Notes: generated by a model not told the origin, from the letters alone. A stretch of DNA of 64,000 bases from Polyangiaceae bacterium (GCA_025937895.1 JAICQL010000010.1:1-64000); one strand, 5' to 3'; shown: positions 950 through 62,464, numbered from the stretch's first letter. Program-made: numbers and translations.

Positions 950-1567
950 TCATGCAGCGAGCGCGGCTCCCGCGAACGCTCGCTCGGCAAGCGCGACCAA
1001 CCCCGGCCCGAGCGAGCAGAGGCAGGCGGCGGCCCGCTCGGCGCCGGCTCGAAGCGAAATCTCCTCGGGCCACCGCCGCCACGCGATGATGCGAGGAAGC
1101 AGCCTGCCGTCGCCAATGGCGGCCACCCACTGCCGGAGCGTCGACCATCGATTCAGATCGAAGCCCGACTGCCAGGTGCACACCCGCCTCCGGGTCTCCC
1201 CGATGGAGTGGCCCATCAGCCCAAACACGCAGAGCGCAAGGCCGATCGCCGACGCCGAGTAGTGGCGTCGGGCGCAAAGCCCCCTGGGCAGAACCGTCGT
1301 GACCCCGCCGCAATGCCGACACCGGTACCGCCGCACGGCCACGATGACCACCTCGGGCTCACCGTCGGAGCTCGCCGGGCCCCGCGCCTGCCGCCAGCGC
1401 ACGCCGTGACCCTGCAGCCCCAAGCGGCCGCCCAGCGGCTGGCTCGCCGCTCCGCAACGGCTACAGCATCCTGGTCGCACTCGTCCCGCCGATGGCGGAG
1501 TCTCCGCCCACGTCTTGACAGGGATCGTCGAGTAGACGATGCCCTCTCCGCTCGCTCTCCGTTGCAA
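950..1567 (-). CDS. DUF6431-like zinc-binding accessory protein of the transposable element
   Basis: CSRCG...YRCRHCGGVTTVLPRGLCARRHYSASAIGLAL... motif pattern typical of proteins found next to IS481/TniA-like transposases; immediately upstream of the transposase on the same strand. Confidence 0.7.
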   Translation of the reverse strand: MQRRASGEGIVYSTIPVKTWAETPPSAGRVRPGCCSRCGAASQPLGGRLGLQGHGVRWRQARGPASSDGEPEVVIVAVRRYRCRHCGGVTTVLPRGLCARRHYSASAIGLALCVFGLMGHSIGETRRRVCTWQSGFDLNRWSTLRQWVAAIGDGRLLPRIIAWRRWPEEISLRAGAERAAACLCSLGPGLVALAERAFAGAALAA

Positions 1568-2058: not shown

Positions 2059-3108
2059 GTGACGGACGCTACAGTCTCCGCAGTTCGCCGCCAGGTCGAG
2101 GCTCGGCTGGCGGCCTATCGTGAGCAGGTTGCGCCCGTAATCCTACGGGCTATTCCACGGCGCGAGCCACGCAAGCACCTGTACGATCTCGTCGAGGCTC
2201 AACTCACGCAAGAGGGTAAGGGCATCCGTCCTGCTCTGTGCCTGGCCACGTGCCGCGCATTTGGTGGCGAGCTGAATCGGGCGCTACCATCCGCTTCTGC
2301 GGTAGAGCTATTGCACAACGCTTTCCTGGTGCACGACGACATCGAGGATGAAAGCGACTTTCGGCGAGGACGTCCCACCATGCACCGGGAGCACGGCGTA
2401 CCTCTTGCCGTCAACGTCGGTGACGCCATGAATGCAATGAGCGCCAGACTATTGCGCGACAATATAGCTCTATTAGGCGCAGAGCTCAGCGCGCGAATCT
2501 TTGACGAGTTCGATCATCTCTCGATCGAGACGCTCGAGGGACAGGCCATGGAGCTGGGGTGGATACGTGACAATTGCTGCGACACCACTGAGCAGGACTA
2601 CCTGCTCATGGTCTTGAAGAAGACCAGCTGGTACAGCTTCATTCATCCCACTCGTATTGGGGCGATGATCGCGCAGCCCGAGCGCGAAGATCTGGACGCT
2701 TTCAATCGCTTTGGGTTCTTTCTAGGGATTGCATTTCAGATCCAGGATGATGTCCTGAACTTGATAGGTGACCGTAATAGGTATGGAAAAGAAATAGGCG
2801 GCGATCTGCTCGAGGGCAAGCGAACGCTGATTTTGTCGCACCTATTCCAGCAGCTCAATGGTCATGAGAAGGCACGCCTGCGAGCTTTCCTTGGCAAGCC
2901 GCGGCAGCAGCGTATGTCCAGAGAGGTTTCTTGGGTTTATGAGCTGCTGCGCTTGTACGGGAGCATTGAATATGCGCGCACCGCTGCTCGTGCATTTGCG
3001 GATGCCGCTCGAACTGAGCTGCGATCGGCCTACGCCGACGCTCAACCTGGTGAGGACCTGGAGTTCGTGCGGCTCTTGCTCGAGTACATGGTGGAGCGCG
3101 ATGCCTGA
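2059..3108 (+). CDS. Polyprenyl synthetase (geranylgeranyl/farnesyl diphosphate synthase family), copy 1
   Basis: HNAFLVHDDIEDESDFRRGRPT (first Asp-rich motif) and FQIQDDVLNLIGDRNRYGKEIGGDLLEGKRT (second motif). GTG start at 2059 chosen over upstream extension. Confidence 0.92.
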   Translation: MTDATVSAVRRQVEARLAAYREQVAPVILRAIPRREPRKHLYDLVEAQLTQEGKGIRPALCLATCRAFGGELNRALPSASAVELLHNAFLVHDDIEDESDFRRGRPTMHREHGVPLAVNVGDAMNAMSARLLRDNIALLGAELSARIFDEFDHLSIETLEGQAMELGWIRDNCCDTTEQDYLLMVLKKTSWYSFIHPTRIGAMIAQPEREDLDAFNRFGFFLGIAFQIQDDVLNLIGDRNRYGKEIGGDLLEGKRTLILSHLFQQLNGHEKARLRAFLGKPRQQRMSREVSWVYELLRLYGSIEYARTAARAFADAARTELRSAYADAQPGEDLEFVRLLLEYMVERDA

Positions 3109-3114
3109 GCCGAG

Positions 3115-4047
3115 CTAGTGCTGCACAATCTCCGCCTTTGTCTTTGAGATCAGCATCAGGAGGTCCTGCTGATCCGCTGGATGAACACGATACTCTTCTA
3201 GCGCAGAGATCAGCTCACGCGCGCCCAATTCCCAGTCAGCCTCGGAGAGCGACAGATGGCTGTGCGCCTGCTTCATGGTTCGGCCCCTGTACTCGCGCGG
3301 CCCACCTGCGAGCTCGCAGACAAAGGCGCCGAACTTGCGCTTTAGCTCGAGTTCGTCATGATGGCGGAGTCCTGCCAGAATGCGCGGATTTTGGCGGTGT
3401 AGCGCCTCGTTGGTATGTAGGCCATCGACGAAAGCTGCCATGAAGTCGTAGATCTTCTCGGCGCCGCCAAGTCGCTCGTAGAGCGGTCGAGACCCATAGC
3501 GCGACGTGTGACGGGGGCCGACCCGCTGCTCAGATCTCAAGCTCACCACGCCGACGGCCGTTGCCTCGGGCGAAATGGCAAAGAGATCATAATCGACGCG
3601 CGTTTCGCCGGGGCGCAGCTCGCCCACACCCAGGAACAGCATGCGGTTTAGCCAATCATGGCGGGGATCGCCAGTGAGCAGGCGCGGGCACCAGCCGAGC
3701 GCTGAGTTTGGCAGCCGCAGCTCCGCCGCTTTGCGGTAGCCATACTGGCCAAAGTCATATCGGCCCATTGCCTCCAAGTCCGCGACGGCGCCATCGTCCA
3801 GGAGCAGCGGCGCCCGCACGTTGATCGTGCCGACGCCGTCCGAATCGATGAGCAGATAGGCTGCACAACGAGGGACCCTGCCATTGAGCTCGGGCCCGCT
3901 AACAGAGCCTTCGACCCAAAACTCGAAGCGAACGCCGTCCGCCGTTTCTCCGATCGGGAGGGGCGTGTCAAAGCGGAGGGCGACCGCGGCTACAAAACGC
4001 AAGTCCGCCGCGTGTCGCGCTTGGGTAGATGCAAGGCCGATGGGCAT
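3115..4047 (-). CDS. DUF3237 domain fused to C-terminal truncated (group I-like) hemoglobin
   Basis: N-term ...YDFGQYGYRKAAELRLPNSALGWCPRLLTGDPRHDWLNRMLFLGVGELRPGETRVDYDLFAI (DUF3237-like); C-term PLYERLGGAEKIYDFMAAFVDGL...LKRKFGAFVCELAGGPREYRGRTMKQAHSHLSLSEADWELGARELISAL (truncated globin, proximal His). Start MPIGLASTQ at 4047. Confidence 0.8.
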   Translation of the reverse strand: MPIGLASTQARHAADLRFVAAVALRFDTPLPIGETADGVRFEFWVEGSVSGPELNGRVPRCAAYLLIDSDGVGTINVRAPLLLDDGAVADLEAMGRYDFGQYGYRKAAELRLPNSALGWCPRLLTGDPRHDWLNRMLFLGVGELRPGETRVDYDLFAISPEATAVGVVSLRSEQRVGPRHTSRYGSRPLYERLGGAEKIYDFMAAFVDGLHTNEALHRQNPRILAGLRHHDELELKRKFGAFVCELAGGPREYRGRTMKQAHSHLSLSEADWELGARELISALEEYRVHPADQQDLLMLISKTKAEIVQH

Positions 4048-4085
4048 GCAGTGTGCTCTGCGCGTTACAGGTTCTGGGCCAGGGG

Positions 4086-4616
4086 TCAGTCCCGCACTTC
4101 CAGCAACACCACCACCTCGGGGGTGTGGCGAGCCTCCTGCGTGCTGACGAAGCCGATGTAGGTGCAGGGCACGGCTGGCCTGGGGGTGCCGTCGGCGACG
4201 GCGATGCGCAGGCGGTTGCCGTCGAGCACTGGATCGAGGGTGAGCTTGATGTCGGGCTGGCCTGCTCCGCCGGCCATGGGCTTGAGCACTCCGGCTTCGA
4301 GCACGCCGGGGATGGGGCGGATCAGGTCGATGACGTCGGAGGGGGTGCCGATGGTGGCGCTGGTCCAGCGCAGGCGCGCCCACACTGGTCGGTGATCGTC
4401 ACGCTGGGTCAGGCGCACCAGCTCCTGCACGAAGTCATACTGGGCCTGCGCGCTGCGGCTAAGATCCGTCACCCATTCGCCGACACCGTATTGGCCCTGG
4501 CTGAACTTGCCCCATGCCTCGTTCATGCGCTCGCTGAGCTGCTTGAGCCCTGCCGCATAGTGGGCAAACACACGCTGTTGCAGCTCGAATCCAGGGTAAT
4601 TGCTTCGTTCGGTCAT
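4086..4616 (-). CDS. Hypothetical protein: helical N-terminal region plus C-terminal beta domain
   Basis: MTERSNYPGFELQQRVFAHYAAGLKQLSERMNEAWGKFSQ...QYDFVQELVRLTQ then ...IPCTYIGFVSTQEARHTPEVVVLLEV-type ending; 176 aa, good codon bias. Confidence 0.7.
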   Translation of the reverse strand: MTERSNYPGFELQQRVFAHYAAGLKQLSERMNEAWGKFSQGQYGVGEWVTDLSRSAQAQYDFVQELVRLTQRDDHRPVWARLRWTSATIGTPSDVIDLIRPIPGVLEAGVLKPMAGGAGQPDIKLTLDPVLDGNRLRIAVADGTPRPAVPCTYIGFVSTQEARHTPEVVVLLEVRD

Positions 4617-4760
4617 CTCTCACCTCACCATGCTCTCTGCGGCCCGGGCTCTGTCGACCGCGCCCGTCAGCTCGAGTTTCCCACCCCCGTCGCGCACGTG
4701 CCGGCTCGCTCGGCGCCCGTGGGTGCTGAGCGAGCGGATGTCAGCTTAGCCAGCGAATTG

Positions 4761-6179
4761 TCAGCTGAGCGCCTTGCGCGTGCCCTCGAACACCAGCTCT
4801 CGCATCAGGATGCTGGTCAGCGGCGGAGCCATCAGGTTGAGCAAGGTGCCCAGGCCCGGTGGAGCGTCCGCCGGCTGCGTGTAGTGCACGCTCTTGTCTG
4901 CCTCCACCTCCAGCACGCCCAGTGGCGTTCCGTTGGCGTCGTGGTGGGTGCGCGTCCAGACCGCGCGGAACGTGCCTTGATCCACGTCCAGCCCGCCCGG
5001 AACACTGCCCACCGCATATTTGCTGCGAGCTGAGACGAACAGGGAATACTTGTACGAGATTGAGGCCACGGCCTCGGTGACGGCAGGCTCCGTGCGCTTC
5101 GTGCCGGGCACCAGTTGCGCATCATCCTCCGTATAGCCGCGCTTCTCCAGGTCGGAGATGGTGAGCACGGTGGTCGCCTCCACCGTGGACTCCGTGGTGG
5201 GCGACCACTGAAACTCGATGATCTCCTGCATCAAGCCGGGCTTGCCCTTGCACCAGTCGGAGTACTCCTTGGAGCCCTTGGGGAACTGGTGAAACGCGCC
5301 GTTGCGCCACTCCCCCGGCTCGGTGCTCTTGAAGAACTCTCCGTCTCCGCTGTCATCCCAGTTGCGCGGATCTGCACCGCCAAAGAAGCACGCCACGACC
5401 GGACCCGGCACGTCGGTGAAGGCGACTCGCTCTGCTGCCGTGGTGATGGACGTATCCTCGTCGAACTTCATCTCGGAGTCGTGCATCACGGGCCGCCGGT
5501 ATTCGCTGGCGATGCGCTCACCGAACTGCACCCAGTCCGGGCCGCTGAAGCGCTGCTCCTCCGCCAGGAAATCATGGGTGGAACAGCAGGGGCAGGGCCC
5601 CGCCTGGCCGTCGAACACCGCGCGAAAGGCTGCTTCACCCAGCGCCTCTTGCCCCGCCTCTTTTGCCTGGTGCCGCAGTTGCTTGGCCAGCTCCAGCCGC
5701 TCTTTCTGCTTCTTGCCGAGCACATCCGTGCCGGCGCCTTGCTGTAGCCAGCGCGAGAAGCGCTCGCGCATGACCTTGCCGTGGCCGCGCATGAACTGCT
5801 GGCGGTGATCTTCACTCGCCGGGCCCAGCAGTGCCTCGAGCTTGGGCTGCGCGTTGCTGGTGCGCGCGATCTGCGCGGCGGCATCACGCCAGGCGCGCTG
5901 GTGCTTGGGCTCCGCCCTGGTGTTGGGCTCGGCCGTTTGCGAGGGCACAGCCGTGCCCGCTGGCTCGGGCGCGGCTCCGGTGCGGAGGCCGCGGCGCTCA
6001 TTCGGGCGCGGCACCGCGGGCCTTGCAGCGCGCAGCGTGTCCACGGCGCCTTGCAAGGGCAGGGGCTTCAAGAACTCCACCCCCGGTGAGACAGGCACGT
6101 TGGCTCGATGCCGGGCCACGCTGGTGCCCACCTTGGCTGCGAGCGTCGCCTTCAGCCGTTGCGTCTCCTCCATGTGCAT
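4761..6179 (-). CDS. Hypothetical protein, possible SRPBCC/START-like C-terminal domain
   Basis: Likely start MHMEETQRLKATLAAKVGTSVARHRANVPVSPGVEF; C-term ...TFRAVWTRTHHDANGTPLGVLEVEADKSVHYTQPADAPPGLGTLLNLMAPPLTSILMRELVFEGTRKALS. No family confidently recognised. Confidence 0.65.
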   Translation of the reverse strand: MHMEETQRLKATLAAKVGTSVARHRANVPVSPGVEFLKPLPLQGAVDTLRAARPAVPRPNERRGLRTGAAPEPAGTAVPSQTAEPNTRAEPKHQRAWRDAAAQIARTSNAQPKLEALLGPASEDHRQQFMRGHGKVMRERFSRWLQQGAGTDVLGKKQKERLELAKQLRHQAKEAGQEALGEAAFRAVFDGQAGPCPCCSTHDFLAEEQRFSGPDWVQFGERIASEYRRPVMHDSEMKFDEDTSITTAAERVAFTDVPGPVVACFFGGADPRNWDDSGDGEFFKSTEPGEWRNGAFHQFPKGSKEYSDWCKGKPGLMQEIIEFQWSPTTESTVEATTVLTISDLEKRGYTEDDAQLVPGTKRTEPAVTEAVASISYKYSLFVSARSKYAVGSVPGGLDVDQGTFRAVWTRTHHDANGTPLGVLEVEADKSVHYTQPADAPPGLGTLLNLMAPPLTSILMRELVFEGTRKALS

Positions 6180-6678
6180 CCTCCCAAGCAGGTACCCTAT
6201 CGGTGCTCGAGTGCTCTGACAAGCTTTGAGCCGTGAGGGTGATGATGAACCGGTGAAACGGGGTCCGCGTCTCGCTGACCGCCGCGTTGCCTGGCGGCGC
6301 CTTTGACTGCTGCCGCTGCCGTGCCGCCGCTGTGCCACCACTGATTTGCCGCTCCGACGCCACCCGCGCGGTGGCTGTTCGAGCTCGGCTGCTTGAATGA
6401 CGGCCGCGTTGAACACGGACATAATCGAGTGGGGCCATTGCCAGACTACCGAGCTGAAGGGCGCGCGCCTCGGCGTGCCCAGCGTCCACTGCAGAGGTCA
6501 CTGCTCGAGTGCTCTCGCAGCTGGAGGCCGCGTGAGTTGCTACTCCTTTGACGTAGGGGGTTGCGATTGTCTCGTGAAACGTGTTGAGTGAGACGGTCGC
6601 CGCGGCGACACGCATACCCACATCACCGCCGGGGGAGTGGGCGCGGTTCCAGCCTGCCCTCTTCGAGGGCCTGTAGAG

Positions 6679-6708
6679 AGGTCTCTCTGAAACAGGTCTG
6701 TCTGAAAC
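6679..6708. repeat. 15-bp imperfect tandem repeat in divergent intergenic region
   Basis: aggtctctctgaaac / aggtctgtctgaaac, one mismatch, about 110 bp upstream of the 6821 start. Confidence 0.6.
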
Positions 6709-6820
6709 GTAACTGCGGGACTCGGCTGGTGCACCAATCGAGCATCACTGCAACAGCGCGTTGCGCGTGGCCTGGCTGCGGGCAGGCTCGCAGCGGCTCA
6801 TCGGGCACGGAGGAAGGTTG

Positions 6821-7888
6821 ATGGCAGCCCCGGCGCCCGTCCTGATCTATGGTGCGAACGGCTTCACGGGCAGGCTGATTGTGGAGGCGGCTGTCGAGCG
6901 CGGCCTCTCGCCGGTGCTGGCGGGCCGCGATGCCGTGCGCGTGCAGCAGCTCGCTCGCTCTCTGGGGCTCGACCATCGGATCGCCTCGCTGTCCCATCCG
7001 GAAGAGCTCGCCGACGCGCTACGTGGCATGAGCGTGGTGTTGAATGCAGCGGGCCCGTTTGCCTCCACGGCGCGGCCGCTGCTCCAGGCGTGCCTGCAGG
7101 TAAAGGCAAGCTACCTGGACATCTCCGGCGAGCTCGAGGCCCTCGAGCAAGTGGCCGCTCATGATCACGAGGCACGCACCCGCGGGGTGATGCTCCTGCC
7201 CGGGGTTGGGTTTGACATCGTGCCTTCAGACTGCCTCTGCGCGCATGTTGCACGACGAGCCGCGCGGCCTTCGAGCTTGCGCATCGCCGTGAGCGGCCTG
7301 GAGCTGATGTCACCGGGTTCGGGCGCAACTTTGTCCGCCGAGCTGGGGCGCGCCACGCGCGTGCGCCGGGCAGGTCGCCTGCAAGAGCTGCCACCAGGCG
7401 AGCTGACCCGCAGCTTCGACTTCGGCAAGGGGCCGCGGCTGTGCGCGGCGGTCAGCTGGGGGGACCTGGCCTGCGCGCATTTCACCACCGGCATAGAAAA
7501 CGTCGAGACGTACTTCGAGCTCACGCCGGCCGTTGCAGCCATGTTACAGACCAGCCGCTACGGCGCCTGGTTCTTCAACCTGCCGGGCATGAGGGAGGCG
7601 CTGGCCCGCCAGGCCAAGCTGTGGACACCGGAGCCCGCGGCCGTCGAGCGCGAGCGGCGCCGGGCCACCATCGTTGCGGAGGTGGAGGAAGTCTCGGGCC
7701 GGCGGGTGAGGGCGCGCTTGACCACGCCGGAGGCGTACACGCTGACGGCGCGGGTGGCGGCGGAGATCCTGCGACGGGTCGCCGCCGCAGATCTGGAGCC
7801 GGGCTTTCAGACTCCAGCGCGCTTGCTGGGGCCGCAGTTCATCCTGGGATTTGAGGGGGTACAGCGCATGGACATCGAGCTGAATTGA
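6821..7888 (+). CDS. Saccharopine dehydrogenase-like NAD(P)-binding oxidoreductase
   Basis: MAAPAPVLIYGANGFTGRLIVEAAVERGLSPVLAGRD...VVLNAAGPFASTARPLLQACLQVKASYLDISGELEALEQ; ggagga RBS upstream of ATG. Confidence 0.88.
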   Translation: MAAPAPVLIYGANGFTGRLIVEAAVERGLSPVLAGRDAVRVQQLARSLGLDHRIASLSHPEELADALRGMSVVLNAAGPFASTARPLLQACLQVKASYLDISGELEALEQVAAHDHEARTRGVMLLPGVGFDIVPSDCLCAHVARRAARPSSLRIAVSGLELMSPGSGATLSAELGRATRVRRAGRLQELPPGELTRSFDFGKGPRLCAAVSWGDLACAHFTTGIENVETYFELTPAVAAMLQTSRYGAWFFNLPGMREALARQAKLWTPEPAAVERERRRATIVAEVEEVSGRRVRARLTTPEAYTLTARVAAEILRRVAAADLEPGFQTPARLLGPQFILGFEGVQRMDIELN

Positions 7889-7930
7889 AATTGAAGCCTT
7901 GCCCGGTGGAGGGCATGAAGTGAGGGACAA

Positions 7931-10093
7931 GTGAGCGCGGGCAAACCCATCGAGGTTGCAATCATCGGCGGCGGCTGTGCGGGCATGGCGGCGGCGTTCG
8001 AGCTGACTCGGCCGGAGCAGGACGGAAAGTATCGGGTCACCGTCTACCAGCAAGGGTTTCGGCTGGGTGGAAAGGGAGCTTCGGGGCGTGGCCCCGGCGA
8101 CCGCATCGAGGAGCACGGCCTGCATCTGTGGATGGGCTTTTATGAAAACGCCTTCCGCCTGATGCGCCAGTGTTACGCGGAGCTGGGCCGTGACCCGCGC
8201 CAGTGCCCGATCGCGGACTGGAAGCAGGCGTTTGAGCCCGATCACTTCTGCGGGGTCACCGATCACACCCCAGACGGGCGCTGGTCGCCGTGGGTGGTGG
8301 CGTTTCCGGCCACCCCCGGCCTGCCCGGGGACGCCGATGCGCAGCGCTGGTCGGTGCGCGACTATCTGGGCCGCAGCACCACCCTGGTGCTCACTCTGCT
8401 GCGCGCCGTGCGCCCACGCTTTGAAAAGGCTGCGAGCAAGGGCGTAGCGCCCCCCAGCAGCGTTCCTGGCGATGATTCTTCCGGCACTGATCTGGCCGCG
8501 ACCATGATGCGCTGGCTCCGCTACGGCGAGCTGGCGACCCTGGCCGGTCTGCTGCAGGGGCTCGAGCTGCTGGACGCGGTGGTGCGCAACCTGCCCGCGT
8601 ATCCGCGCGAGCTGATCCTGAACTTCCACGAGGCCATCGCCGGTGCGGCGCGCGCGCAGCTGGCCACGCGCACGCAGGGCGACGATGAGCTCCGCCGGCT
8701 GTGGGAGATCATCGATCTGACCCTGGCGGTGGTGCGCGGCATCATTCGCTTCCAGCTGGTCAGCGATCCGCGCGGCTTCTCCGCCATCGATAACTACGAT
8801 TGCCGCGAGTGGCTGAAGCTCAACGGCGCCTCCGAGAGCTCCACCAACGGCGCCTTCGTGCGCGCGCTCTATGATCTGGCGTTCGCGTATGAAGACGGTG
8901 ACGTGAGCCGGCCGCGCATCGCGGCGGGCCAGGCGCTGCGCGGTGCCGTCCGGGCCTTCTTCACTTACCGCGGCGCTTTCTTCTGGAAGATGCAGGCCGG
9001 CATGGGCGACGTGGTGTTCGCCCCTTTTTATGAGGTGCTGGCGCGCAGGGGCGTGCGCTTCGAGTTCTTCCATCGCTTGACTCGGGTGGAGCTGGCGCCC
9101 GCTGCGCCCGGGGTGAGCCCGCACGTGCAAGCGCTGCACTTCGACCAGCAGGCGCGCGTGCCGGGCGATGCGCCCTATCAGCCGCTGGTGGATGTGCGCG
9201 GCTTGCCCTGCTGGCCCGCGGAGCCCGACTGGGCTCAGCTGGTGGATGGGGAGCGGCTGCGCGCCGAGGGCTGGCGCTTCGAGTCGCACTGGGATCGCCG
9301 GCGCGCCGGCACGAAGCGCCTGGAGGTGATGCGGGACTTCGACGTGGTGGTGCTCTCGGTGGGGCTGGGGGCGCTGCCCGAGGTGGCGGCCGAGCTGGCG
9401 CAGCAGAGCCCGCGCTGGCAGCGCATGTTCGAGACCTGCAAGTGCGTTGCCACCCAGGCCTTTCAGCTGTGGATGGACGTGGACATGCCGCAGCTGGGCT
9501 GGACCCAGCCGCAGATCAACATCTCGGGTTTCGTGGAGCCGTTTGACACCTGGGCGGACATGCGCCAGCTGATCCCGCAAGAGAGCATGTCACCGGCGCC
9601 GCGCTCGATCGCATACTTCTGCAGCGTGCTGCCGGATCCGCCCGCAGGCACCGACATCGCCAGCCCGCGTTACCCCGAGCAGCGCTACGAGGAGGTGCGA
9701 GCCAATGCCGTCCACTTCCTCGAGCGCTACGTGGTCAAGCTGTGGCCGCTCGCTCTCGACGAGCGCGGTCAGTTCCGCTGGGACACGCTCAACGTCAGCA
9801 CGCTGCCCGTGAGCGAGGTTCCGCCCGCGGGAGCCGCGCGTTTTGCCAGCCAGTTCTGGACGGCCAACGTGAACCCGAGCGATCGCTACTCGCTCTCGCT
9901 GCCCGGGACCCTGGAGCACCGTGTTTCACCGCTCGATCGCAGCTTCGACAATCTCACGGTGGCAGGCGACTGGAGTGATTGCGGTTTCAACGAAGGTTGT
10001 GTGGAGGCTGCGGTGATGTCGGGCCGACTGGCGGCACACGCCATCTCGCAGCGCCCTCGCCTGGAAGAGATTGTGGGTTATGACCATCCTTGA
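7931..10093 (+). CDS. FAD-dependent amine-oxidase/phytoene-desaturase-like oxidoreductase (720 aa)
   Basis: VAIIGGGCAGMAAAFEL dinucleotide fold, YQQGFRLGGKGASGRG..IEEHGLHLWMGFYENAF, C-term LTVAGDWSDCGFNEGCVEAAVMSGRLAA FAD signature. Confidence 0.88.
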   Translation: MSAGKPIEVAIIGGGCAGMAAAFELTRPEQDGKYRVTVYQQGFRLGGKGASGRGPGDRIEEHGLHLWMGFYENAFRLMRQCYAELGRDPRQCPIADWKQAFEPDHFCGVTDHTPDGRWSPWVVAFPATPGLPGDADAQRWSVRDYLGRSTTLVLTLLRAVRPRFEKAASKGVAPPSSVPGDDSSGTDLAATMMRWLRYGELATLAGLLQGLELLDAVVRNLPAYPRELILNFHEAIAGAARAQLATRTQGDDELRRLWEIIDLTLAVVRGIIRFQLVSDPRGFSAIDNYDCREWLKLNGASESSTNGAFVRALYDLAFAYEDGDVSRPRIAAGQALRGAVRAFFTYRGAFFWKMQAGMGDVVFAPFYEVLARRGVRFEFFHRLTRVELAPAAPGVSPHVQALHFDQQARVPGDAPYQPLVDVRGLPCWPAEPDWAQLVDGERLRAEGWRFESHWDRRRAGTKRLEVMRDFDVVVLSVGLGALPEVAAELAQQSPRWQRMFETCKCVATQAFQLWMDVDMPQLGWTQPQINISGFVEPFDTWADMRQLIPQESMSPAPRSIAYFCSVLPDPPAGTDIASPRYPEQRYEEVRANAVHFLERYVVKLWPLALDERGQFRWDTLNVSTLPVSEVPPAGAARFASQFWTANVNPSDRYSLSLPGTLEHRVSPLDRSFDNLTVAGDWSDCGFNEGCVEAAVMSGRLAAHAISQRPRLEEIVGYDHP

Positions 10094-11219
10094 TCAGACG
10101 GCTCCGAGACCTGAAGGCAGCAACGTGGCGGAGGCGGGCGCGCGCGTGACGCGGCCTGCGCTGGAGCGGGACGCGCCCATTCGCAACTGGGCCACGCTGT
10201 TTGGGCCGGCGTGGGGTGCCACCGGGGGCGGGTCGGCAGGGGCTGGCAGTCCGCTGGCGGGCAGCGCCCTCGGAGGGAATGCACACGCGGGCTCCCCCCT
10301 CGCGGGGAATGCGATGGCCGGCATGGCGAACGCGGCAAATACGATGCTCGGCGCAGCCAGCCAGACGCTGGCGGACGCGGTGGGGCAGGGTTACCGCGTC
10401 ATCAACGAATATTTGGCGCAAGGCCAGCGCCAGGCGGAGGCGCTGCGCTTTCCCGACTGGTCGAGCTTCTTGCCGGGCACCGGCGGCGCTGCAGCCAGCA
10501 GCGCGGGAGCCGCCAGCGCGGCCCAGCAGGAGCTGCAGCAGCAGCTCTTCCGGCGCTTGATGCAATACGGGATGGATTTCGCAGCGCTGTATTTTGAGAT
10601 GTTGAGCCGCGCGGGCTGGCCCGCGCCGCCGGGTGGTGCCAGCGCGGGGGCAGGCACGCCGGCAGCGTGGACCGAGGCCTTCGCACGAGCCTATTCGCCG
10701 GCAGCCTGGGCCGGTGCTGCTGCGCCAAACGGCGCCGCCAGCTCGGGCACTAGCTCCGGCTCCAGCGCAAGCGGCACCTCCGCTGCCCCGCCGCCCGCCT
10801 GGCCCTTCCCGATGCCCTTTCCCTGGGCGCCGCCCGCAGCGGCCCCCGCCGCACCCAGCGCGCCTGAAGCAGCGGCGCCCAGCGCCGGTCCGGCGCCGGG
10901 AGCGCCCGTCTCGAGCGAGAGCCCCGATCGCGTGTTCGTCTCCGTTGCGTCACAGCGACGGGTGGAGTCCGTGCTAGAGCTGCGGCGCGGCTCGTGGAGC
11001 GCGCTGGCCGCGCACGCCTTGCGCCCCGAGGGGCATGAGGCGCCCGCGATCCGAGGTGTGACGATCGAGGCGCGGCCCGAGGAGAGTCTCCTGCGCGTGA
11101 GCGTGGTGGTGCCGGCAGAGCAGGGCCCTGGCGTGTACAACGGCATGATCGTCGATACGGCCTCGAATCTGCCGCGCGGCACGCTGACGGTGCGCGTGCT
11201 GGCGGGAGAGGGGGAATGA
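10080..11219 (+). CDS. Ala/Gly/Pro-rich protein with helical segment and C-terminal beta domain
   Basis: ATG at 10080 overlaps the end of the oxidoreductase gene; GYRVINEYLAQGQRQAEALRFPDW...FRRLMQYGMDFAALYFEMLSRAGW; C-term RGVTIEARPEESLLRVSVVVPAEQGPGVYNGMIVDTASNLPRGTLTVRVL. Confidence 0.75.
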   Translation: MTILDQTAPRPEGSNVAEAGARVTRPALERDAPIRNWATLFGPAWGATGGGSAGAGSPLAGSALGGNAHAGSPLAGNAMAGMANAANTMLGAASQTLADAVGQGYRVINEYLAQGQRQAEALRFPDWSSFLPGTGGAAASSAGAASAAQQELQQQLFRRLMQYGMDFAALYFEMLSRAGWPAPPGGASAGAGTPAAWTEAFARAYSPAAWAGAAAPNGAASSGTSSGSSASGTSAAPPPAWPFPMPFPWAPPAAAPAAPSAPEAAAPSAGPAPGAPVSSESPDRVFVSVASQRRVESVLELRRGSWSALAAHALRPEGHEAPAIRGVTIEARPEESLLRVSVVVPAEQGPGVYNGMIVDTASNLPRGTLTVRVLAGEGE

Positions 11220-11228
11220 GCGCCGGGG

Positions 11229-12338
11229 ATGTACGCGCCTGCTGACGTATCGGAAGAGCGCGCAGCCGTCCTGGCGACCGCGGCTCCCTGGGCTTCGGAC
11301 ACTGCCTCGGCGGCACCGGCGAGCCTGGTGAGCGCCGTGCTGGAGGAGTACGGCGCTATCACGCGCCGCGCGCTGTTACCGCACCTCGAGCACGGTGAGC
11401 CGCGGCGCTATCTGTACGGCCCCGCTGGCGACTACCCGCGCCGTTCCGGGCGCATGTTGCGCTCCAGCCTGCTCATCGCCTCGGCACGCGCCTTTGGCGC
11501 CGATCTGGAGAGCGCACTCAACACTGCCGTGGCGCTGGAGCTGATCCACAACGCCTTTCTCGTGCACGACGACGTGGAGGATGAAGGCCTGGAGCGCCGA
11601 GGCCGCCCCACGCTCAACGTGTTGCACGGCACTCCCATCGCCGTCAACGCAGGCGACGCGCTCGCCATCTTGAGCTTGCGCCCGCTGCTCGACAATCGCA
11701 TCACGCTCGGGCCTCGGGTCGCGCTGCGTTTGCTGGAAGAGGTGGAGCGCACCGTGCGCGAGTCGATCGAAGGGCAGGCGCTGGAGTTGGGCTGGCGCAA
11801 TGACAATGCCATCGGCTTGCGCGACGAAGACTACTTGCGGCTGGTGCTGCGCAAGACGTGCTCCTACACCACCATCTTTCCAGTGCGCGCCGGCGCGCTG
11901 ATCGGCACGCGCGACGGGCTCGATCTCGATGTGCTGACCCGCTTTGGCTTCTTCCTGGGGGCGGCGTTCCAGATCCAGGATGACTTGCTGAATCTGGTGG
12001 GCGATCACGCACGCTATGGCAAGGAGCTGGACGGAGACATCTGGGAGGGCAAGCGGTCCTTGATGATGATCCGGCTATTTCAGTGCGCCACCCCCGCCGA
12101 GCTGGAGCAGCTGGCGGAAGCGTTGCGGCCATCGCGCGCGGGGCGCACGGCCGAGCAGGTAGCGTGGATCCGCGAGCGCATGCTGGCGTACGACTGCTTT
12201 GAATACGCTCGCCAGGTGGCGCACGGTCTGGCCGGCGCCGCGCAACACGAGTTCGAGCGCTGCTTCGCCCAGTTGCCCGACACGCGGGACAAGCGCTTTC
12301 TCGCGGACCTGGCCAGGTGGGTGCTGGCGCGGGATTGA
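11229..12338 (+). CDS. Polyprenyl synthetase, copy 2
   Basis: IHNAFLVHDDVEDEGLERRGRPT and FQIQDDLLNLVGDHARYGKELDGDIWEGKRS; clear paralogue of 2059-3108. Confidence 0.92.
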   Translation: MYAPADVSEERAAVLATAAPWASDTASAAPASLVSAVLEEYGAITRRALLPHLEHGEPRRYLYGPAGDYPRRSGRMLRSSLLIASARAFGADLESALNTAVALELIHNAFLVHDDVEDEGLERRGRPTLNVLHGTPIAVNAGDALAILSLRPLLDNRITLGPRVALRLLEEVERTVRESIEGQALELGWRNDNAIGLRDEDYLRLVLRKTCSYTTIFPVRAGALIGTRDGLDLDVLTRFGFFLGAAFQIQDDLLNLVGDHARYGKELDGDIWEGKRSLMMIRLFQCATPAELEQLAEALRPSRAGRTAEQVAWIRERMLAYDCFEYARQVAHGLAGAAQHEFERCFAQLPDTRDKRFLADLARWVLARD

Positions 12339-12393
12339 GCCCCCGCGAGCTCGCTGCGCGCGGTCGCCGCGCTGAGCGCCCTTCTCACCCCGC

Positions 12394-13377
12394 TCACGCG
12401 CTGGCGGGGCGTGAGCGCAGATCCACGATCGTGTCCAGCAGCGTGCTGGCGAACGGGCGATTCTGATAGCAGAGCTCGCGAGCCGCCTTGCTGCAGTCGC
12501 AGTAGTTGAACAGGTTACCGTACTGGATCACGCTGCTGTTCAGCTCCTCGAACGGGTGCTCCCAGTACAGCGAGGCATATTCGGACCAGAGCGCGGACAG
12601 CTCGGCCATGGGCCACGGCGCCGGCAGCGCGCGCGGCAACTGTGCCAGCTGACCCAGCTGGTCCAAGAGCTCGCGATAGCTGAGGTTCACCCCGGCGAGC
12701 AGGTACGATTCGCCTGACCGCGCTTGCTCCAGCGCTACCACATAGGCCACCGCCACGTCGCGCACGTCGGCGAAGGACAGACCACCGCGCAGGTAGAAGC
12801 GCATGCGGCCCTCCAGATAACCGCGCACCAGTCGCGTACTGGTACCGTACACGTCGCCCGGCCCGAGCACGTTGCCGGGCAGCAGCACGCACACGTCCTG
12901 GCCGCTGCCCGCGTACTCGAGCGCAAGTTGCTCGCTCTGCCGCTTGGACTCCACGTACGGATAGCGCAGATGTACGCGGGCACCGCCATTGCTCGACTCC
13001 GCGAGCGCGATGGGCTCCCGCGTGAGACCGATGGTGCCGATGCTCGAGGTGTGCAGTACCCGTAGCCTGCGTCGCGCCGCTGCTTCCAGCACGTTGCGCG
13101 TGCCGGTCAGGTTAACTCGAGTCAAACTGCCCTCGTCCCGGTTGCGCAGCGAGACCAGCCCGGCGACGTGTATCACCGCGTCCACCTCGGCCGTTGCACG
13201 CTCTAGCGAGTCCGACTGCAACACGTCCCCCTCCACGACATTCAGCGGGAGATCGGCGAGGTGGGCGAGGCGGCGCGGATCCCGTACCAACACCGTCGGA
13301 CGATGCCCGGCGGCCACCAGGGCCCGCGTGATCCAGGTGCCCAGGAACCCAGTCGCGCCGGTGACGAGCGTGCGCAT
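12394..13377 (-). CDS. NAD-dependent epimerase/dehydratase (extended SDR)
   Basis: MRTLVTGATGFLGTWITRALVAAGHRPTVLVRD...VDAVIHVAGLVSL...YPYVESKRQSEQL; ATG at 13377. Confidence 0.9.
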   Translation of the reverse strand: MRTLVTGATGFLGTWITRALVAAGHRPTVLVRDPRRLAHLADLPLNVVEGDVLQSDSLERATAEVDAVIHVAGLVSLRNRDEGSLTRVNLTGTRNVLEAAARRRLRVLHTSSIGTIGLTREPIALAESSNGGARVHLRYPYVESKRQSEQLALEYAGSGQDVCVLLPGNVLGPGDVYGTSTRLVRGYLEGRMRFYLRGGLSFADVRDVAVAYVVALEQARSGESYLLAGVNLSYRELLDQLGQLAQLPRALPAPWPMAELSALWSEYASLYWEHPFEELNSSVIQYGNLFNYCDCSKAARELCYQNRPFASTLLDTIVDLRSRPASA

Positions 13378-13507: not shown

Positions 13508-16500
13508 GTGGTCACCTGCGGCAAATGCCAGACGCTCAACGCGGACGACGCGGAGCTGTGCCAGCAATGCGCTCATGAGCTGGGCCGCGTGTGCACTGCT
13601 TGCGCCACGCGCAGCCCGCCGCAGGCCCGCTTCTGCTGCGGCTGCGGCGCGCGGCTAGCACCTGCCGGCGACCGGCAGGCGGCGGCCGCCCACCTGGTGG
13701 CCTGGCCAGCGGCTGAGCTGCGGCAGATCACCATCTTCTTCTGCGACGTGGTGGGCTCGAGCGAGCTCTCCAGCCGCCTCGATCCAGAAGACATCCATGC
13801 CTTGCTGCGCGAGTTTCACGGTGCATGTGCCGACATCGTGAATCGGCATCACGGCCACGTGGCGCAGTACCTGGGCGACGGCCTGCTGGCGTATTTCGGC
13901 TACCCGGTGGCCATGGAGGATGACGCACGCGGCGCGGCGCGGGCGGGCCTCGAGATCGTGCAGCAAGCGTCGCTCATCGTGCTCCCGGCGCTGCGCCGGG
14001 AGGGCATCCAGCTGCAGGTGCGGGTTGGCATCCACACGGGCCGGGTGGTGGTGGGCACCGTGGGCAACGAGGGGCGGCATGAAGCGCTGGCTCTGGGTGA
14101 GACCCCCAACATTGCAGCCCGCGTGCAGGCGCTGGCGCAGCCCTCGACCGTGGTGGTCACAGACACCACCCGGCAGCTGCTCGGGGAGCAGTTTCGATGC
14201 GCGGAGATCGGTAAGCACGAGCTGCGCGGTTTCCGCCAGCCCATGCGCCTGTACCAGGTGGTGGCGGCCGAGGCGGCCAGCAGCGCTGCGGTGGACACGG
14301 CGCCCAGCTCCGGCCCCTTCGTGGGGCGCGGCCGCGAGCTCGCGCAGCTGCAGGAGCGCTGGCACGGCTCCGAGGCGGGCGCCGTGCGGCTGGTGTGCGT
14401 GCTGGGGGAGCCCGGCATGGGCAAGTCGCGCCTGCTGCGCGAGTTTACGCGCTCCCTACGGCCAGAAGGCGTGACAGTGCTCGAGGGGCACTGCTCGCCG
14501 TATCACCAGGGCAGCGCGTTCCATGCCCTGGCGCAGTGTCTGGAGCAGGATCTAGGGGTGGCGCAGGACAGCGGCGCCGAGCACAAGCTGCGTGCCTTGC
14601 AGGAACTGCCGCAGGCTGACCCCGAGCGGCGCGCGCTGCACGTGCGGCTGCTGGCGGGGGTGCTGCGCATGCCCTTGCCGCCAGACTTTCCCGCGGTCGA
14701 GCTGCCGCCCCCCGAGCTGCGGCGCGCCACCTTCGAGGCCTTGCTGGGCTGGTTGGCGGCGCGCCGCAGCCCTACCCTGATGGTGCTGGAGGACCTGCAG
14801 TGGGCAGATCCCTCCACGCTCGAGTTTCTGGCGCACTTCGCGGGCGTACCGACGGGCGAAGCGCGGCTGTGCGTGGTCACCGCGCGCCCGGAGCTGGAGC
14901 TGGCGGTGCTCGCGCTGGAGCGCACGGAGTCGCTGGTGCTGCAGCGGCTGAGCGCCGATGACACGGAGCTCGTGGCGCGGCATCTGGCCGGGGAGCGCCG
15001 GCTGTCCGAGCCCTTGCTGGAGCGCCTGGTCGCCAAGGGGGAGGGCAATCCGCTGTTCGTCGAGGAGATGACGCGAGCGCTGTTCGGCTCGGACGCGCTG
15101 AGCGAAGACGAGCTCAACCTGGCGCCGGCAGTGTCCGCCGACCAGCTCATCCCGACCACCCTGCAGAACACGCTCACCGCGCGCCTGGATCTGCTGGGCA
15201 GGGCCAAGCCCACCGTGCAGCTCGCCGCCGTGCTGGGCCGCGAGTTCCGGCGCGAGGTGCTGGAAGAGGTGTGGAAGTCGGTGTTCTTGCTGTCCGATTT
15301 CGAGCTGGAGCGCGATCTGCGGCAGCTGATCCGCAGCAACCTGCTGTACATGCGGCAGGACGCCAACGGCATCGAATACGGCTTCAAACACGCGCTGCTG
15401 CAGGATGCTGCTTATCAGTCGCTGCTGCGCACGCGGCGCCGCGAGTATCACCGTCGAGTGGCAGATGTGCTGCGCACGCGCTTTTCCACCCAGGCAGAGC
15501 TGAGCCCGGATCTGCTGGCGCAGCACTACTCGGCGGCGGCGCAACCCTGGCTGGCGGTGGAATACTGGGAGAAGGCGGGTCGCCAGGCGGCGGCGGTGGT
15601 GGCGCACCAGGAGGCCATCGGCCACTACCGCGCGGCGCTCGACTCGCTCTCGCTGATCGAGCCTTCGCACCGTCGCTCCGCAAAGGAGACCGATCTGCTG
15701 ATCGCGCTGGGCGTGCTGTACATCCAAACCAAAGGCTTTGCCTCGCCGGAGGTGGAGCAGACCTACCGGCGCGCGGTGGAGCTGTGTGACGAGACCTCGG
15801 AGACGCCGCTGCGCGTGCTGTATGGGTTGTGGGCCGTCAACCTGGTGCGCAGCGAGCTCGAGCCCACCTCGCGCCTGGTTCGGCACCTGGAGCGCTGGCT
15901 GGCCTCCGATGACGTCTCGACCCGACTCGTCTGCCATGCGTGCCTGGGCAACTGGCACTTCTATCGCGGCAACTACCCGGCCGCACGCGAGCACCTGGAG
16001 CGTGCCACGGCGTTGTGTGACTGGGGTAACCCGCGGCGCCAGCACGAGCAGTTACTGCGCGAGCACGGCTTCGAGGGCTTGCTGTATGGCCCGCTGTACC
16101 TGGCGTGGTGTCTCGCCAATCAGGGGGATCCTGGTCGGGCGGAGTCGACCTGGCAGGTTGCGCAGGGCCTGGCCGAGCGCATCGGAGATCCTTACGCGCT
16201 GGTGATGGCACGCGCCTTCGGCGCCACCGTGCATCATGCCCTCGGCAACGTGGACAAGATGCAGGAGCTGGCGGACCAGGTGCTGGAAGAGGCGAGCAAG
16301 AAGGGCTTCTCCTTCTGGCTGGCCACGGCCCAGGTAACCAGCGGCTGGGCGCTAGCCATGCGCGGTGCTGCGGATCGCGGCATCCCCCGCATCGAGGAGG
16401 GCTTGCGCATGTTCCGCACCATCGGCGCGCGCATGCCGTATCCCTATTACCTGTCGTACCTGGCCGAGGCGCATGCCGTGCTCGGCCAGCTGGATGCGGC

Positions 16501-16843
16501 AGACGCTGCGCTCGACGAGGCGCTGTTGATGTCCGCCAGCAACGTGGACTGCAACCACGAGCCCGAGCTGCTGCGACAGAAGGCTGCCCTGTGCACGCGG
16601 CGCGGGCAGAGTGAGCGCGCCATCGAGCTCCTGTCGCGGGCGCGCGAGCTGTCGGCGGCTCAGGGCTGTGTGCTCGTGGAATGGTCCGTCGCGGAGGAGC
16701 TGGCCCTGAGCCTACTGGCCGCAAACCGCGCGGAAGAGGCCAGCAGCGTGCGGCAGCATGGCTCGTGCAGCGACGCCGAGGCGCGCGTGCTGGAGGAGCT
16801 GTACCAGCGTCGCCGGGCGTTGCTGGCAGCGCAGCTGCCCTGA
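13508..16843 (+). CDS. Zinc-ribbon / class III adenylate-guanylate cyclase / AAA ATPase / TPR-like regulator
   Basis: CGKCQTLNADDAELCQQCAHELG..CTACATRSPPQARFCCGCGARL; ITIFFCDVVGSSELSSRLDPEDIHALLREFH; Walker A GEPGMGKSRLLREF; long helical C-terminus. Confidence 0.9.
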   Translation: MVTCGKCQTLNADDAELCQQCAHELGRVCTACATRSPPQARFCCGCGARLAPAGDRQAAAAHLVAWPAAELRQITIFFCDVVGSSELSSRLDPEDIHALLREFHGACADIVNRHHGHVAQYLGDGLLAYFGYPVAMEDDARGAARAGLEIVQQASLIVLPALRREGIQLQVRVGIHTGRVVVGTVGNEGRHEALALGETPNIAARVQALAQPSTVVVTDTTRQLLGEQFRCAEIGKHELRGFRQPMRLYQVVAAEAASSAAVDTAPSSGPFVGRGRELAQLQERWHGSEAGAVRLVCVLGEPGMGKSRLLREFTRSLRPEGVTVLEGHCSPYHQGSAFHALAQCLEQDLGVAQDSGAEHKLRALQELPQADPERRALHVRLLAGVLRMPLPPDFPAVELPPPELRRATFEALLGWLAARRSPTLMVLEDLQWADPSTLEFLAHFAGVPTGEARLCVVTARPELELAVLALERTESLVLQRLSADDTELVARHLAGERRLSEPLLERLVAKGEGNPLFVEEMTRALFGSDALSEDELNLAPAVSADQLIPTTLQNTLTARLDLLGRAKPTVQLAAVLGREFRREVLEEVWKSVFLLSDFELERDLRQLIRSNLLYMRQDANGIEYGFKHALLQDAAYQSLLRTRRREYHRRVADVLRTRFSTQAELSPDLLAQHYSAAAQPWLAVEYWEKAGRQAAAVVAHQEAIGHYRAALDSLSLIEPSHRRSAKETDLLIALGVLYIQTKGFASPEVEQTYRRAVELCDETSETPLRVLYGLWAVNLVRSELEPTSRLVRHLERWLASDDVSTRLVCHACLGNWHFYRGNYPAAREHLERATALCDWGNPRRQHEQLLREHGFEGLLYGPLYLAWCLANQGDPGRAESTWQVAQGLAERIGDPYALVMARAFGATVHHALGNVDKMQELADQVLEEASKKGFSFWLATAQVTSGWALAMRGAADRGIPRIEEGLRMFRTIGARMPYPYYLSYLAEAHAVLGQLDAADAALDEALLMSASNVDCNHEPELLRQKAALCTRRGQSERAIELLSRARELSAAQGCVLVEWSVAEELALSLLAANRAEEASSVRQHGSCSDAEARVLEELYQRRRALLAAQLP

Positions 16844-17573: not shown

Positions 17574-18674
17574 ATGACGAGCGCAAGAACGGAGTGGGAA
17601 CCCACGGCATCTCCGCGGGCCAAAAATGCTGGTGGCCGGGCACGGTCCGCCGCCGTTTCATCCAGCTCATCCAGCTCATCCAGAGCAGCAGCGGCACAGG
17701 AGCTGAGCTTCGCTCGCCTGGACGGCTTGCACCTGAAGCTGCGCAAGACAGGAGCTGGACGCTACGCGCTGGGCGTGGACTTCGAGCTCAGCGGCGATGG
17801 GGTAAAGCTCGGAGCCGCAAAGCCGCAGGCGGATGAAGCGCCCGAGCTCGAAGAGAGCTCGCCGGGGCTGATGCAGGCGTCTGCTGGCACGGACGAAGAG
17901 GCGCTCGGCCTGGCCGAGGAGGAGGCCCTGTTGGCCGCCGATGATGGCGAAGAAGGCCTGGCCATCGAAGATGAAGGGGACGAGGAGGGGGAGCTCTTGA
18001 CCTCCGCCGGTGAGACCTTTGCCGGCGACCTCGAGCAGAGCGAGAGCGCGCAGGAGCCGCGCTGGCCCAACAGGCTTCCGGTGCCGGACGGGGTCCTGGA
18101 GATCTCGCAGGCCCCCGCACTCTTTGAAGAGACAGCCGGCGACGAGGAAGAAGACGAGGCGGGCCTGCTGGGCGCCGAGGAGGCCGACCCAGCGCTGCAA
18201 GCGGTGGAGAAGATGCTCGCCGAGGCCAGAAAGAGCATCGGCCTGGGCGAGAGCCCGCCCGGCTCCAACCACAACAAGATCACCGTCTGGTACAACAAGA
18301 ACATCGCCAAGATCGGCAATGGGCCCTGGTGCAACATGGCCGTGACGTATTGGGCCGGGCACAGCACGAATCTGCCTGCCATCCTGGCAGGCAAGAACAT
18401 CGGGTACGCCTACACCGTGGCCCATGCCCAGAAGTTCAAGAAGAAGGGCCTCTGGCACACCGGGGTGGCGGGGATCAAGGCGGGCGACGTCGTGTTCTTC
18501 GACTGGAAGGGCTCGCACTCCATCGCGAACGTCGACCACGTGGGGGTCGTCGAGAAGGTGGAGGGCAAGAAGATCATCACCATCGAGGGCAACACCACCG
18601 GCAACAAGTGCCGCCGCGTGGTGCGCGATGCGAAGTTCATCGCCGGCTACGGCCGCCCTGCCTACGGACAGTAG
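17574..18674 (+). CDS. CHAP-domain (NlpC/P60-like) putative peptidoglycan amidase with acidic leader
   Basis: aggagg RBS and ATG at 17574; C-term GPWCNMAVTYWAGHS...AGDVVFFDWKGSHSIANVDHVGVVEKVEGKKIITIEGNTTGNKCRRVVR; N-term Glu/Asp/Leu-rich. Confidence 0.85.
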   Translation: MTSARTEWEPTASPRAKNAGGRARSAAVSSSSSSSSRAAAAQELSFARLDGLHLKLRKTGAGRYALGVDFELSGDGVKLGAAKPQADEAPELEESSPGLMQASAGTDEEALGLAEEEALLAADDGEEGLAIEDEGDEEGELLTSAGETFAGDLEQSESAQEPRWPNRLPVPDGVLEISQAPALFEETAGDEEEDEAGLLGAEEADPALQAVEKMLAEARKSIGLGESPPGSNHNKITVWYNKNIAKIGNGPWCNMAVTYWAGHSTNLPAILAGKNIGYAYTVAHAQKFKKKGLWHTGVAGIKAGDVVFFDWKGSHSIANVDHVGVVEKVEGKKIITIEGNTTGNKCRRVVRDAKFIAGYGRPAYGQ

Positions 18675-18718
18675 CGGACATCTGGCGCAGCGGCTGCAAA
18701 GGCTCTTTCCAGGCTGCT

Positions 18719-24216: not shown

Positions 24217-25611
24217 TCAAGGCTTTGCGCTGGCGTCGTCTCGTGGTGGGCGCGAGCCGCTGCTGCGATCCTCATTGTCACGCACGAGGCGCGCCAGCGA
24301 GCGCACGAAGGCAGCTACCCACGGGTTGCGATCGAGCTCGAGGGTGAGCGCCTTGCCGGTGATGAGCTTGAGGGTGACCTCGTCGACCGCCTTCACCGTG
24401 GCGCTGCGGGTGCCACCGGTGAACACCGCCATCTCGCCGAACACCGCGCCCGCCGACAGGCGACGGATCAGCGTCTCCTTGCCGTCGATGAGCTTGTACA
24501 CGTCGCACGAGCCGGACTCGATCAGGTAAGCGGTGTCGCCGCCTTCGCCCTCGGTCACGATGGCCTGCCCGGGCGCGTACACGCGCGTCTCGAACCAGCC
24601 GCCGCCGTCTAGGAACTGCTCCAGCTCGGCGCGCAGCGCAGTCACCGTGGGGTAGCGATCCTCGCGGCGCGGGGCCAGCGCCTTGCCGGCGATGCGGCAC
24701 AGCTCGGGCGGCAGCTGCGGCCAGATCGGGCTGTGCGTGGGGCTCGTCCAGGGGCGGCTGTTGCTCTTGCCCACGAGCAAGCGCTGGTTATTTGGCGGCT
24801 CGCCCACCAGGATCTCGCACAGGATGCCGCCCAGGCCGAACACGTCGGTGCGCTCGTCGATCTCGTCGAGCAGCCCGAACATCTGCTCCGGCGCCATGTA
24901 AGCGGGCGTGCCGCGCGCCTGACCCGACTCCAAGGTGTGGCCCTCCGAGCGCACGAGCGAGTCATGATCGTTGGCGGGCTCGCTGCTGGCGCTCTCCCCC
25001 GAGGGCGGCGGCGCCGTGCTGCGCGAGCCGGAGAGCCCGGCAGCGGGTGGAGCCGAGCTGCGCGCGCGGTCGGTCATGAGCAGCGCCATGCCCCAGTCCA
25101 TCAGGTAGATCTGGCCGTGATCGCCCACCATCACGTTCTCGGGCTTGATGTCGCAGTGGATGACCCCGCGCCGGTGGGCGAAGGAGAGCGCGTCACACAG
25201 GCGCAGCACGATCTGCACCAGGTAGCGCAGGCGATCGAGCGGCTGCGCCGGCTGGCGCTCCCTGCGCAAGAGCTCCGCCAGGGTCTTGCCCGCGATCCAC
25301 TTCATCACCAGGAAAGGGCTGCGCTCGCCATCGCCGAAGTCATAGATGGGGACGATGTTCGGGTGATCGAGCTGCCCGGTGACCCGAGCCTCCTGCGCGA
25401 ACTCGGCCAGCACCCGCTCGTCGCGCTCCAGGTCCGGGCGCAGCACCTTGATCGCCACCTTGCGCCCGATCACCGGATCGCGCGCGCCCAGGATGACCCC
25501 GACGCCGCCGCGATTGATCTCGCTCAGCCAGCGATAGCGCTCCGCGGACTCACCCAGCTGCGCTGCCCCCACCGCGTTGTCTTCTTCGTCCGGCACTGCT
25601 TCTTCCGCCAC
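24217..25611 (-). CDS. Ser/Thr protein kinase with C-terminal cyclic-nucleotide-binding domain
   Basis: INRGGVGVILGARDPVIGRKVAIKVL, VIHCDIKPENVMVGDHGQIYLMDWG; C-term GQAIVTEGEGGDTAYLIESGSCDVYKLIDGKETLIRRLSAGAVFGEMAVFTGGTRSATVKAV. Confidence 0.92.
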   Translation of the reverse strand: MAEEAVPDEEDNAVGAAQLGESAERYRWLSEINRGGVGVILGARDPVIGRKVAIKVLRPDLERDERVLAEFAQEARVTGQLDHPNIVPIYDFGDGERSPFLVMKWIAGKTLAELLRRERQPAQPLDRLRYLVQIVLRLCDALSFAHRRGVIHCDIKPENVMVGDHGQIYLMDWGMALLMTDRARSSAPPAAGLSGSRSTAPPPSGESASSEPANDHDSLVRSEGHTLESGQARGTPAYMAPEQMFGLLDEIDERTDVFGLGGILCEILVGEPPNNQRLLVGKSNSRPWTSPTHSPIWPQLPPELCRIAGKALAPRREDRYPTVTALRAELEQFLDGGGWFETRVYAPGQAIVTEGEGGDTAYLIESGSCDVYKLIDGKETLIRRLSAGAVFGEMAVFTGGTRSATVKAVDEVTLKLITGKALTLELDRNPWVAAFVRSLARLVRDNEDRSSGSRPPRDDASAKP

Positions 25612-43171: not shown

Positions 43172-43455
43172 TCATTTACTATGACGTGCAGAGCTTGCGA
43201 TGCAACGCGCTCTGCAGCCCGCTCCTGGTGAGACAAATCAGGTGCAACAGCGAGAGCAGTGCGAGCAAGCTGAGTGGCTCTGCGGGGGGCACGGTGCGCA
43301 CGGCTCACCTCCGCGCACTGCTGGGCGGCACCGCTCGTGCTGATCCGTACACCCTGGAATGCGCCCTGGCCGGGGAGCCAGGCGGTGTGGAGAAGCGGTT
43401 CTGGGCACTTTTGGCGCTATTGCGGGCCGCGGCCCTTCGAGTAGCCTCCGCGCCG

Positions 43456-44700: not shown

Positions 44701-44742
44701 GCCCCGCCTCCGCTCGCTCGTGAGCCCCGCCTCAGCTCCTGA

Positions 44743-56437: not shown

Positions 56438-62464
<6,027 letters not shown>

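Follow-up and report, generated by a model that had tools for sequence, protein, structure and literature searches.

A gene cluster with a polyprenyl synthase, a CrtI/HpnE-like flavoenzyme and the orphan o382 in a Polyangiaceae bacterium: probable origin of an uncharacterised isoprenoid lipid

Relation to described isoprenoid loci

Carotenoid clusters (crtE/crtB/crtI/crtY), the hopanoid genes (hpnCDE, hpnA) and the family-2 encapsulin loci with polyprenyl-transferase cargo are the closest described systems to a group of genes that we analysed at positions 2059-13377 of a 64,000-nt stretch from a Polyangiaceae bacterium (GCA_025937895.1 JAICQL010000010.1:1-64000; the whole stretch is called the window). 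The host genome is a draft of 8.57 Mb in 425 contigs, 92% complete. The original prediction described these genes as a candidate isoprenoid cluster bounded by two paralogous polyprenyl synthetases. We found a core consisting of an FAD oxidoreductase (FADox), the orphan protein o382 and a polyprenyl diphosphate synthase (PPS), which is closely spaced on one strand and syntenic across phyla, and o382 is exclusive to this core within the order. The locus probably represents a widespread type of cluster, as yet uncharacterised, for the synthesis of an isoprenoid lipid, with o382 as its dedicated accessory protein.

The predicted gene order and coordinates were borne out by Pfam and NCBIfam searches with curated cut-offs and by codon-usage gene calling, which gave an identical gene set in the cluster region. 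The genes are as follows.

2059-3108, + strand: PPS1, polyprenyl diphosphate synthase, a divergent accessory copy (PF00348 polyprenyl_synt, 2.3e-63)
3115-4047, - strand: fusion of DUF3237 and a truncated globin, Bac_globin (PF11578, 8e-15; PF01152, 1e-8)
4086-4616, - strand: phas176, orphan of 176 amino acids with a helical N-terminus and a beta C-terminus; recurs with o553-like genes
4761-6179, - strand: o553 (the 553-frame orphan), with a disordered/helical N-terminus and a predicted START/Bet v 1-like helix-grip C-terminal domain
6821-7888, + strand: SDHred, saccharopine-dehydrogenase-like NADP reductase (PF03435 Sacchrp_dh_NADP, 1e-10)
7931-10093, + strand: FADox, CrtI/HpnE-like amine-oxidase-type FAD oxidoreductase, core (PF13450/PF01593)
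10125-11219, + strand: o382, core orphan, with two helices, a linker and an Ig-like beta domain by profile and predicted model
11229-12338, + strand: PPS2, polyprenyl diphosphate synthase of the cluster, core (PF00348, 4.5e-51)
12394-13377, - strand: SDR/epimerase-like reductase, variable member (PF01370, 1.4e-35)
13508-16843, + strand: adenylate/guanylate cyclase with AAA/STAND and TPR regions, a regulator (PF00211, PF13191, TPR)

The three orphans (phas176, o553 and o382) matched no Pfam or NCBIfam family above cut-off, and o553 probably starts at 6179 instead of 6422.

As in carotenoid clusters, a prenyl diphosphate synthase here adjoins a flavoenzyme of the CrtI/HpnE superfamily, but phytoene synthase and lycopene cyclase are missing, FADox is of another subfamily with a large helical insertion, and the exclusive o382 is present. 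The HpnE-like FAD protein and HpnA-like SDR recall the hopanoid genes; however, the scores are far under cut-off (64.8 bits for FADox with HpnE TIGR03467, curated cut-off 283.05), and the cluster contains no HpnC, HpnD or squalene-hopene cyclase. The synthases are related to the encapsulin cargo enzymes and have NF041169 among their best models, but they score 199.5 and 165.3 bits against a cut-off of 450 and no shell gene was found here. When the host draft genome was searched for a family-2B encapsulin shell, only partial hits at the level of the cyclic nucleotide (cNMP) domain were obtained, none over cut-off. By the membership tests run, the cluster is no carotenoid, hopanoid or encapsulin-cargo locus. 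A tblastn search for squalene/phytoene synthase (SQS/PSY), run with a positive control, detected no homologue in the window or in 80 related loci, and we confirmed that none of the cluster genes recognisably encodes a terpene cyclase, phytoene synthase or prenyltransferase.

Literature searches for this gene combination and for COG3349 gave no paper that describes the cluster; subscription papers and preprints lay mostly outside the search, and a prior description is possible. Polyprenyl, saccharopine and acetoacetate genes are not mentioned in a paper on conserved myxobacterial clusters (PMC12766979), and the PPS reported near a type III polyketide synthase in Enhygromyxa is a different one (PMC6226438).

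A core of FADox, o382 and PPS2

Conservation was assessed within the order of the source organism (184 genomes, its own included). A close FADox was present in 14 of these genomes, with about 44-64% identity to the window copy in the other 13, and the FADox locus of every carrier also contained a PPS. The o382 profile found one copy in each of the 14 carriers, always at that locus, and none in the remaining 170 genomes (Fisher p ~3e-21 for co-occurrence with FADox, uncorrected for shared ancestry). In the closest genome, from the same genus, FADox and o382 were both absent, so the cluster is accessory.

The FADox alignment was also run against 84,980 species (one genome each), the best 80 loci were kept, and their genes were clustered jointly with those of the window to count gene families per locus. 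Most of these 80 loci are syntenic with the window cluster. PPS was found in 61 of these loci, acetoacetate-decarboxylase-like (ADC-like) proteins in 49, o382-like proteins in 45, adenylate-cyclase/STAND proteins in 43, SDHred in 30 and the SDR in 19. FADox, o382 and PPS lie on the same strand in about 40 loci, with o382-PPS intergenic gaps mostly between -4 and +57 bp. FADox carries a C-terminal YDHP tail (encoded at 10079-10090), and among 61 database loci with a [YF]DHP-tailed FADox, 59 have a PPS; the remaining two are on short or cut contigs. Since the whole 8.57-Mb host genome has five polyprenyl synthetases, this association is not due to chance.

The YDHP-tailed loci come from Myxococcota, Alpha-, Beta- and Gammaproteobacteria, Acidobacteriota, Cyanobacteriota, Gemmatimonadota, Binatota and one metagenome-assembled genome (MAG) of Planctomycetota. 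The cluster is thus spread over about seven phyla in nearly constant gene order; several of these loci are from MAGs, in which binning may be wrong, and isolates cover Myxococcota, Pseudomonadota and Cyanobacteriota. Named isolates with the cluster are Archangium violaceum, Polyangium, Enhygromyxa salina, Rhodopila globiformis, Sulfitobacter mediterraneus, Novosphingobium sediminis, Methylotetracoccus oryzae and Synechococcus sp. BO 8801. Absence of co-occurrence in other genomes had been named as grounds for giving up the cluster, and the synteny analysis gave the opposite result.

A related gene set was found in Actinomycetota as well. Loci of Mycobacterium and Acidimicrobiales have PPS, cyclase/STAND and FADox, some of them also SDHred, and in the matching places encode proteins that resemble o382, o553 and phas176 by motif (o553 profile E 0.08-3, not significant). 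Judged from motif and position, we infer that these small proteins are the actinobacterial equivalents. In Mycolicibacterium neoaurum (L143, 3101-13290) PPS, o382-like, o553-like, phas-like, cyclase/STAND, FADox and SDHred genes are consecutive, the small proteins again assigned by motif and position only.

The two synthases of the window lie 8.1 kb apart (end of PPS1 to start of PPS2) and share 43% identity. The DDxxD and DDxxN motifs are intact in both (DDIED/DDVLN in PPS1, DDVED/DDLLN in PPS2). In an unrooted tree of 54 synthases, PPS2 fell among the enzymes of myxobacterial clusters and PPS1 grouped with the PPS of actinobacterial clusters (98/90), on a fairly long branch that leaves its exact kin unsure. 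A PPS1+PPS2 clade, as expected from tandem duplication, was rejected (approximately unbiased test, p=0.012). PPS2 is the cluster enzyme, and PPS1 is a divergent addition that forms no wall of the cluster. An organisation around the pair of synthases was therefore dropped: of the two, PPS2 alone is part of the conserved block, they do not form a clade, and the conserved unit runs beyond PPS2 to the end of the adenylate-cyclase/STAND gene at 16843. PPS1 and the DUF3237-globin fusion lie outside the conserved core, and the fusion is specific to the window, with no match across the 80 related loci. Just upstream of PPS1, a DUF6431 open reading frame at 950-1567(-), a zinc-ribbon and transposase-like protein by reading, could be the border of a segment that is mobile or has been rearranged.

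Elsewhere in the host genome, one PPS belongs to a complete carotenoid cluster on a separate contig, together with genes for phytoene synthase, lycopene cyclase and a CrtI-type enzyme, and another adjoins a GHMP kinase. The sole SQS/PSY gene of the genome (PF00494) belongs to that carotenoid cluster. Because the genome has this separate cluster and other synthases, PPS1 and PPS2 are surplus to carotenoid and other needs.

The orphan proteins and their partners

In the model of o382, the N-terminus, which carries a recurrent R..PIR motif, is disordered and is followed by helices at 63-106 and 130-162, a low-complexity linker and an Ig-like beta domain at 269-362, which is predicted with confidence (pLDDT ~95). 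Foldseek comparison of the model with PDB and BFVD gave no significant match, with weak Ig-like domains only, and sequence profiles of o382 and o553 found nothing significant in PDB. The beta domain of o382 shows a weak profile relationship to phas176. A phasin identity was considered for o382 and phas176 and rejected; neither has a Pfam match, and PF09361 is absent from the host genome and 20 relatives.

From about residue 230, the AlphaFold model of o553 follows the order beta-beta-alpha-alpha-beta(6)-alpha of the START/Bet v 1 helix-grip. Foldseek returned 84 PDB matches with E<=1e-3 (top 1.3e-5, probability 1.00), mainly PYL receptors, the CERT START domain and Bet v 1, with the aromatase/cyclase ZhuI among them. 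The TM-scores of 0.35-0.66 support the fold class only, and the N-terminal half of the model is of low confidence. The predicted fold is common to these proteins and the C-terminal domain of o553; at the sequence level, however, identity is about 10% and there is no relationship. We predict that o553 is a START/Bet v 1-like binder of hydrophobic ligands. The original prediction considered that one orphan could supply the missing cyclase or scaffold function: by these models, o382 is a plausible scaffold, and o553 has a fold common to lipid carriers and some cyclases.

An ADC-like protein is encoded in most loci. Its first domain has often retained REVYGWPK, and in a weak match to solved ADCs (E 0.27) the Lys lines up with theirs. 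Many Myxococcota loci have the o553 and phas176-like pair instead, and Pfam found no PF06314-like (ADC-like) gene among the cluster proteins of the window. Among 56 long loci with PPS, o553 and ADC-like never occur together, seven have o553 only and 42 ADC-like only (p 1.5e-5, uncorrected). Genes like phas176 adjoin o553-like genes in seven loci (L070, L071, L072, L073, L078, L104 and L135), and within the order o553 is confined to cluster-bearing genomes. In one genome (G131) the pair is kept together about 6.7 Mb away from the cluster, which supports a functional o553-phas pair.

Wider relatives of FADox in Catenovulum, Azospirillum and Shewanella (same superfamily, 35-41% identity) are likewise paired with an ADC-like partner. 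Unlike the window cluster, these pairs have no PPS, o382 or YDHP tail, and they are also uncharacterised as far as we found. Large proteins with ADC-like domains were seen at L036 570-4061, L039 13227-16082 and L055 9011-12208; the one in L055 is fused to FADox itself, which supports a direct functional link between FADox and ADC-like proteins.

A Ser/Thr kinase with a cNMP-binding domain is encoded at 24217-25611(-), and similar kinase-cNMP proteins occur in L071, L072 and L073. It may act as a cyclic AMP (cAMP) effector for the cyclase/STAND protein nearby. The window further contains tandem CHAP-domain and GH19 chitinase-like proteins (17775-20749, +), a row of genes for a deoxyhypusine-synthase-like protein, a MatE transporter and an Orn/Arg decarboxylase (43294-47588, +), possibly a polyamine operon, and a frame that is open for about 2000 codons and has a strong coding signal (56438-62464, -).

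Proposed pathway and competing explanations

In the proposed pathway, PPS2 would make a short all-trans prenyl diphosphate, and FADox, as a member of the CrtI/HpnE flavoenzyme superfamily, would dehydrogenate, isomerise or dehydroxylate the derived prenyl chain. SDHred would perform a reductive or C-C step, taken over in other versions by an SDR and/or the ADC-like Lys enzyme, and the START-like o553 may carry or cyclise the hydrophobic intermediate. The o382 scaffold could join PPS and FADox, possibly via the YDHP tail, and might do so on a membrane or lipid surface; the occurrence of this C-terminus in PPS-linked loci suggests a docking tag but could reflect simple descent. The neighbouring cyclase/STAND protein may regulate the pathway through cAMP. 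A bolder form of this proposal is rather unlikely: a pathway class of several phyla for an unknown isoprenoid lipid, in which an o382/phas176 scaffold docks the prenyl synthase to the flavoenzyme via the YDHP tag, with START-fold and ADC-like proteins as interchangeable non-canonical terpene cyclases or carriers.

Several points weigh against an isoprenoid-lipid cluster with o382 as a dedicated accessory. The main weakness is that we recognised no enzyme consuming the prenyl diphosphate; the cluster of the original prediction proved real, conserved and devoid of a canonical cyclase or SQS/PSY, and the isoprenoid nature of its product is what we infer. Wider relatives of FADox are found beside ADC-like proteins in the absence of PPS, so the substrate of FADox is not necessarily a prenyl chain. 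The scaffold role of o382 is drawn solely from its predicted architecture, and the co-occurrence statistics are uncorrected for phylogeny or for horizontal transfer of the block.

The best surviving alternative, which we consider rather unlikely, is that FADox with ADC-like or o553 forms a lipid-modifying redox unit for a fatty acid or other hydrophobic substrate, with PPS adding a prenyl group or making a separate cofactor. The PPS-free pairs of Shewanella, Catenovulum and Azospirillum, the last near a gene for an outer-membrane transport protein, agree with such a unit, as does the membership of SDHred in the saccharopine-dehydrogenase-like reductase family. However, every sufficiently long contig of the YDHP subfamily has a PPS. 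Less probable still is a carotenoid or hopanoid pathway of a variant type. Here PPS would give farnesyl or geranylgeranyl diphosphate, and FADox would be a desaturase or hydroxysqualene dehydroxylase served by an SQS/PSY encoded elsewhere. The best NCBIfam models of FADox are indeed HpnE and the zeta-carotene/phytoene desaturases, and 44 of the 49 carriers encode an SQS/PSY at some place in the genome; but the HpnE score is far below cut-off, neither the window nor the 80 loci contain an SQS/PSY homologue, the host has its complete carotenoid cluster on another contig, and five carrier genomes (drafts) are without any SQS/PSY.

A family-2 encapsulin cargo locus or genes for a phasin-coated granule would fit the NF041169 matches (199 and 165 bits) and the small helical proteins o382 and phas176, but this is very improbable and already contradicted by the sub-threshold scores, the shell search and the lack of a phasin family match. 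Least credible are chance neighbours or a recent local PPS duplication: the same-genus genome without FADox and o382 and the globin fusion unique to the window would agree, but cross-phylum synteny, exclusive co-occurrence and the non-sister position of PPS1 and PPS2 refute this for the core, and it is possible for PPS1, the DUF3237-globin fusion and the SDR.

Conservation over several phyla of a cluster for which no product has been named suggests an isoprenoid lipid or cofactor that has escaped recognition. Any search conditional on a known terpene cyclase would overlook the cluster. As an exclusive marker, o382 makes the cluster easy to mine, and the named isolates make it testable.

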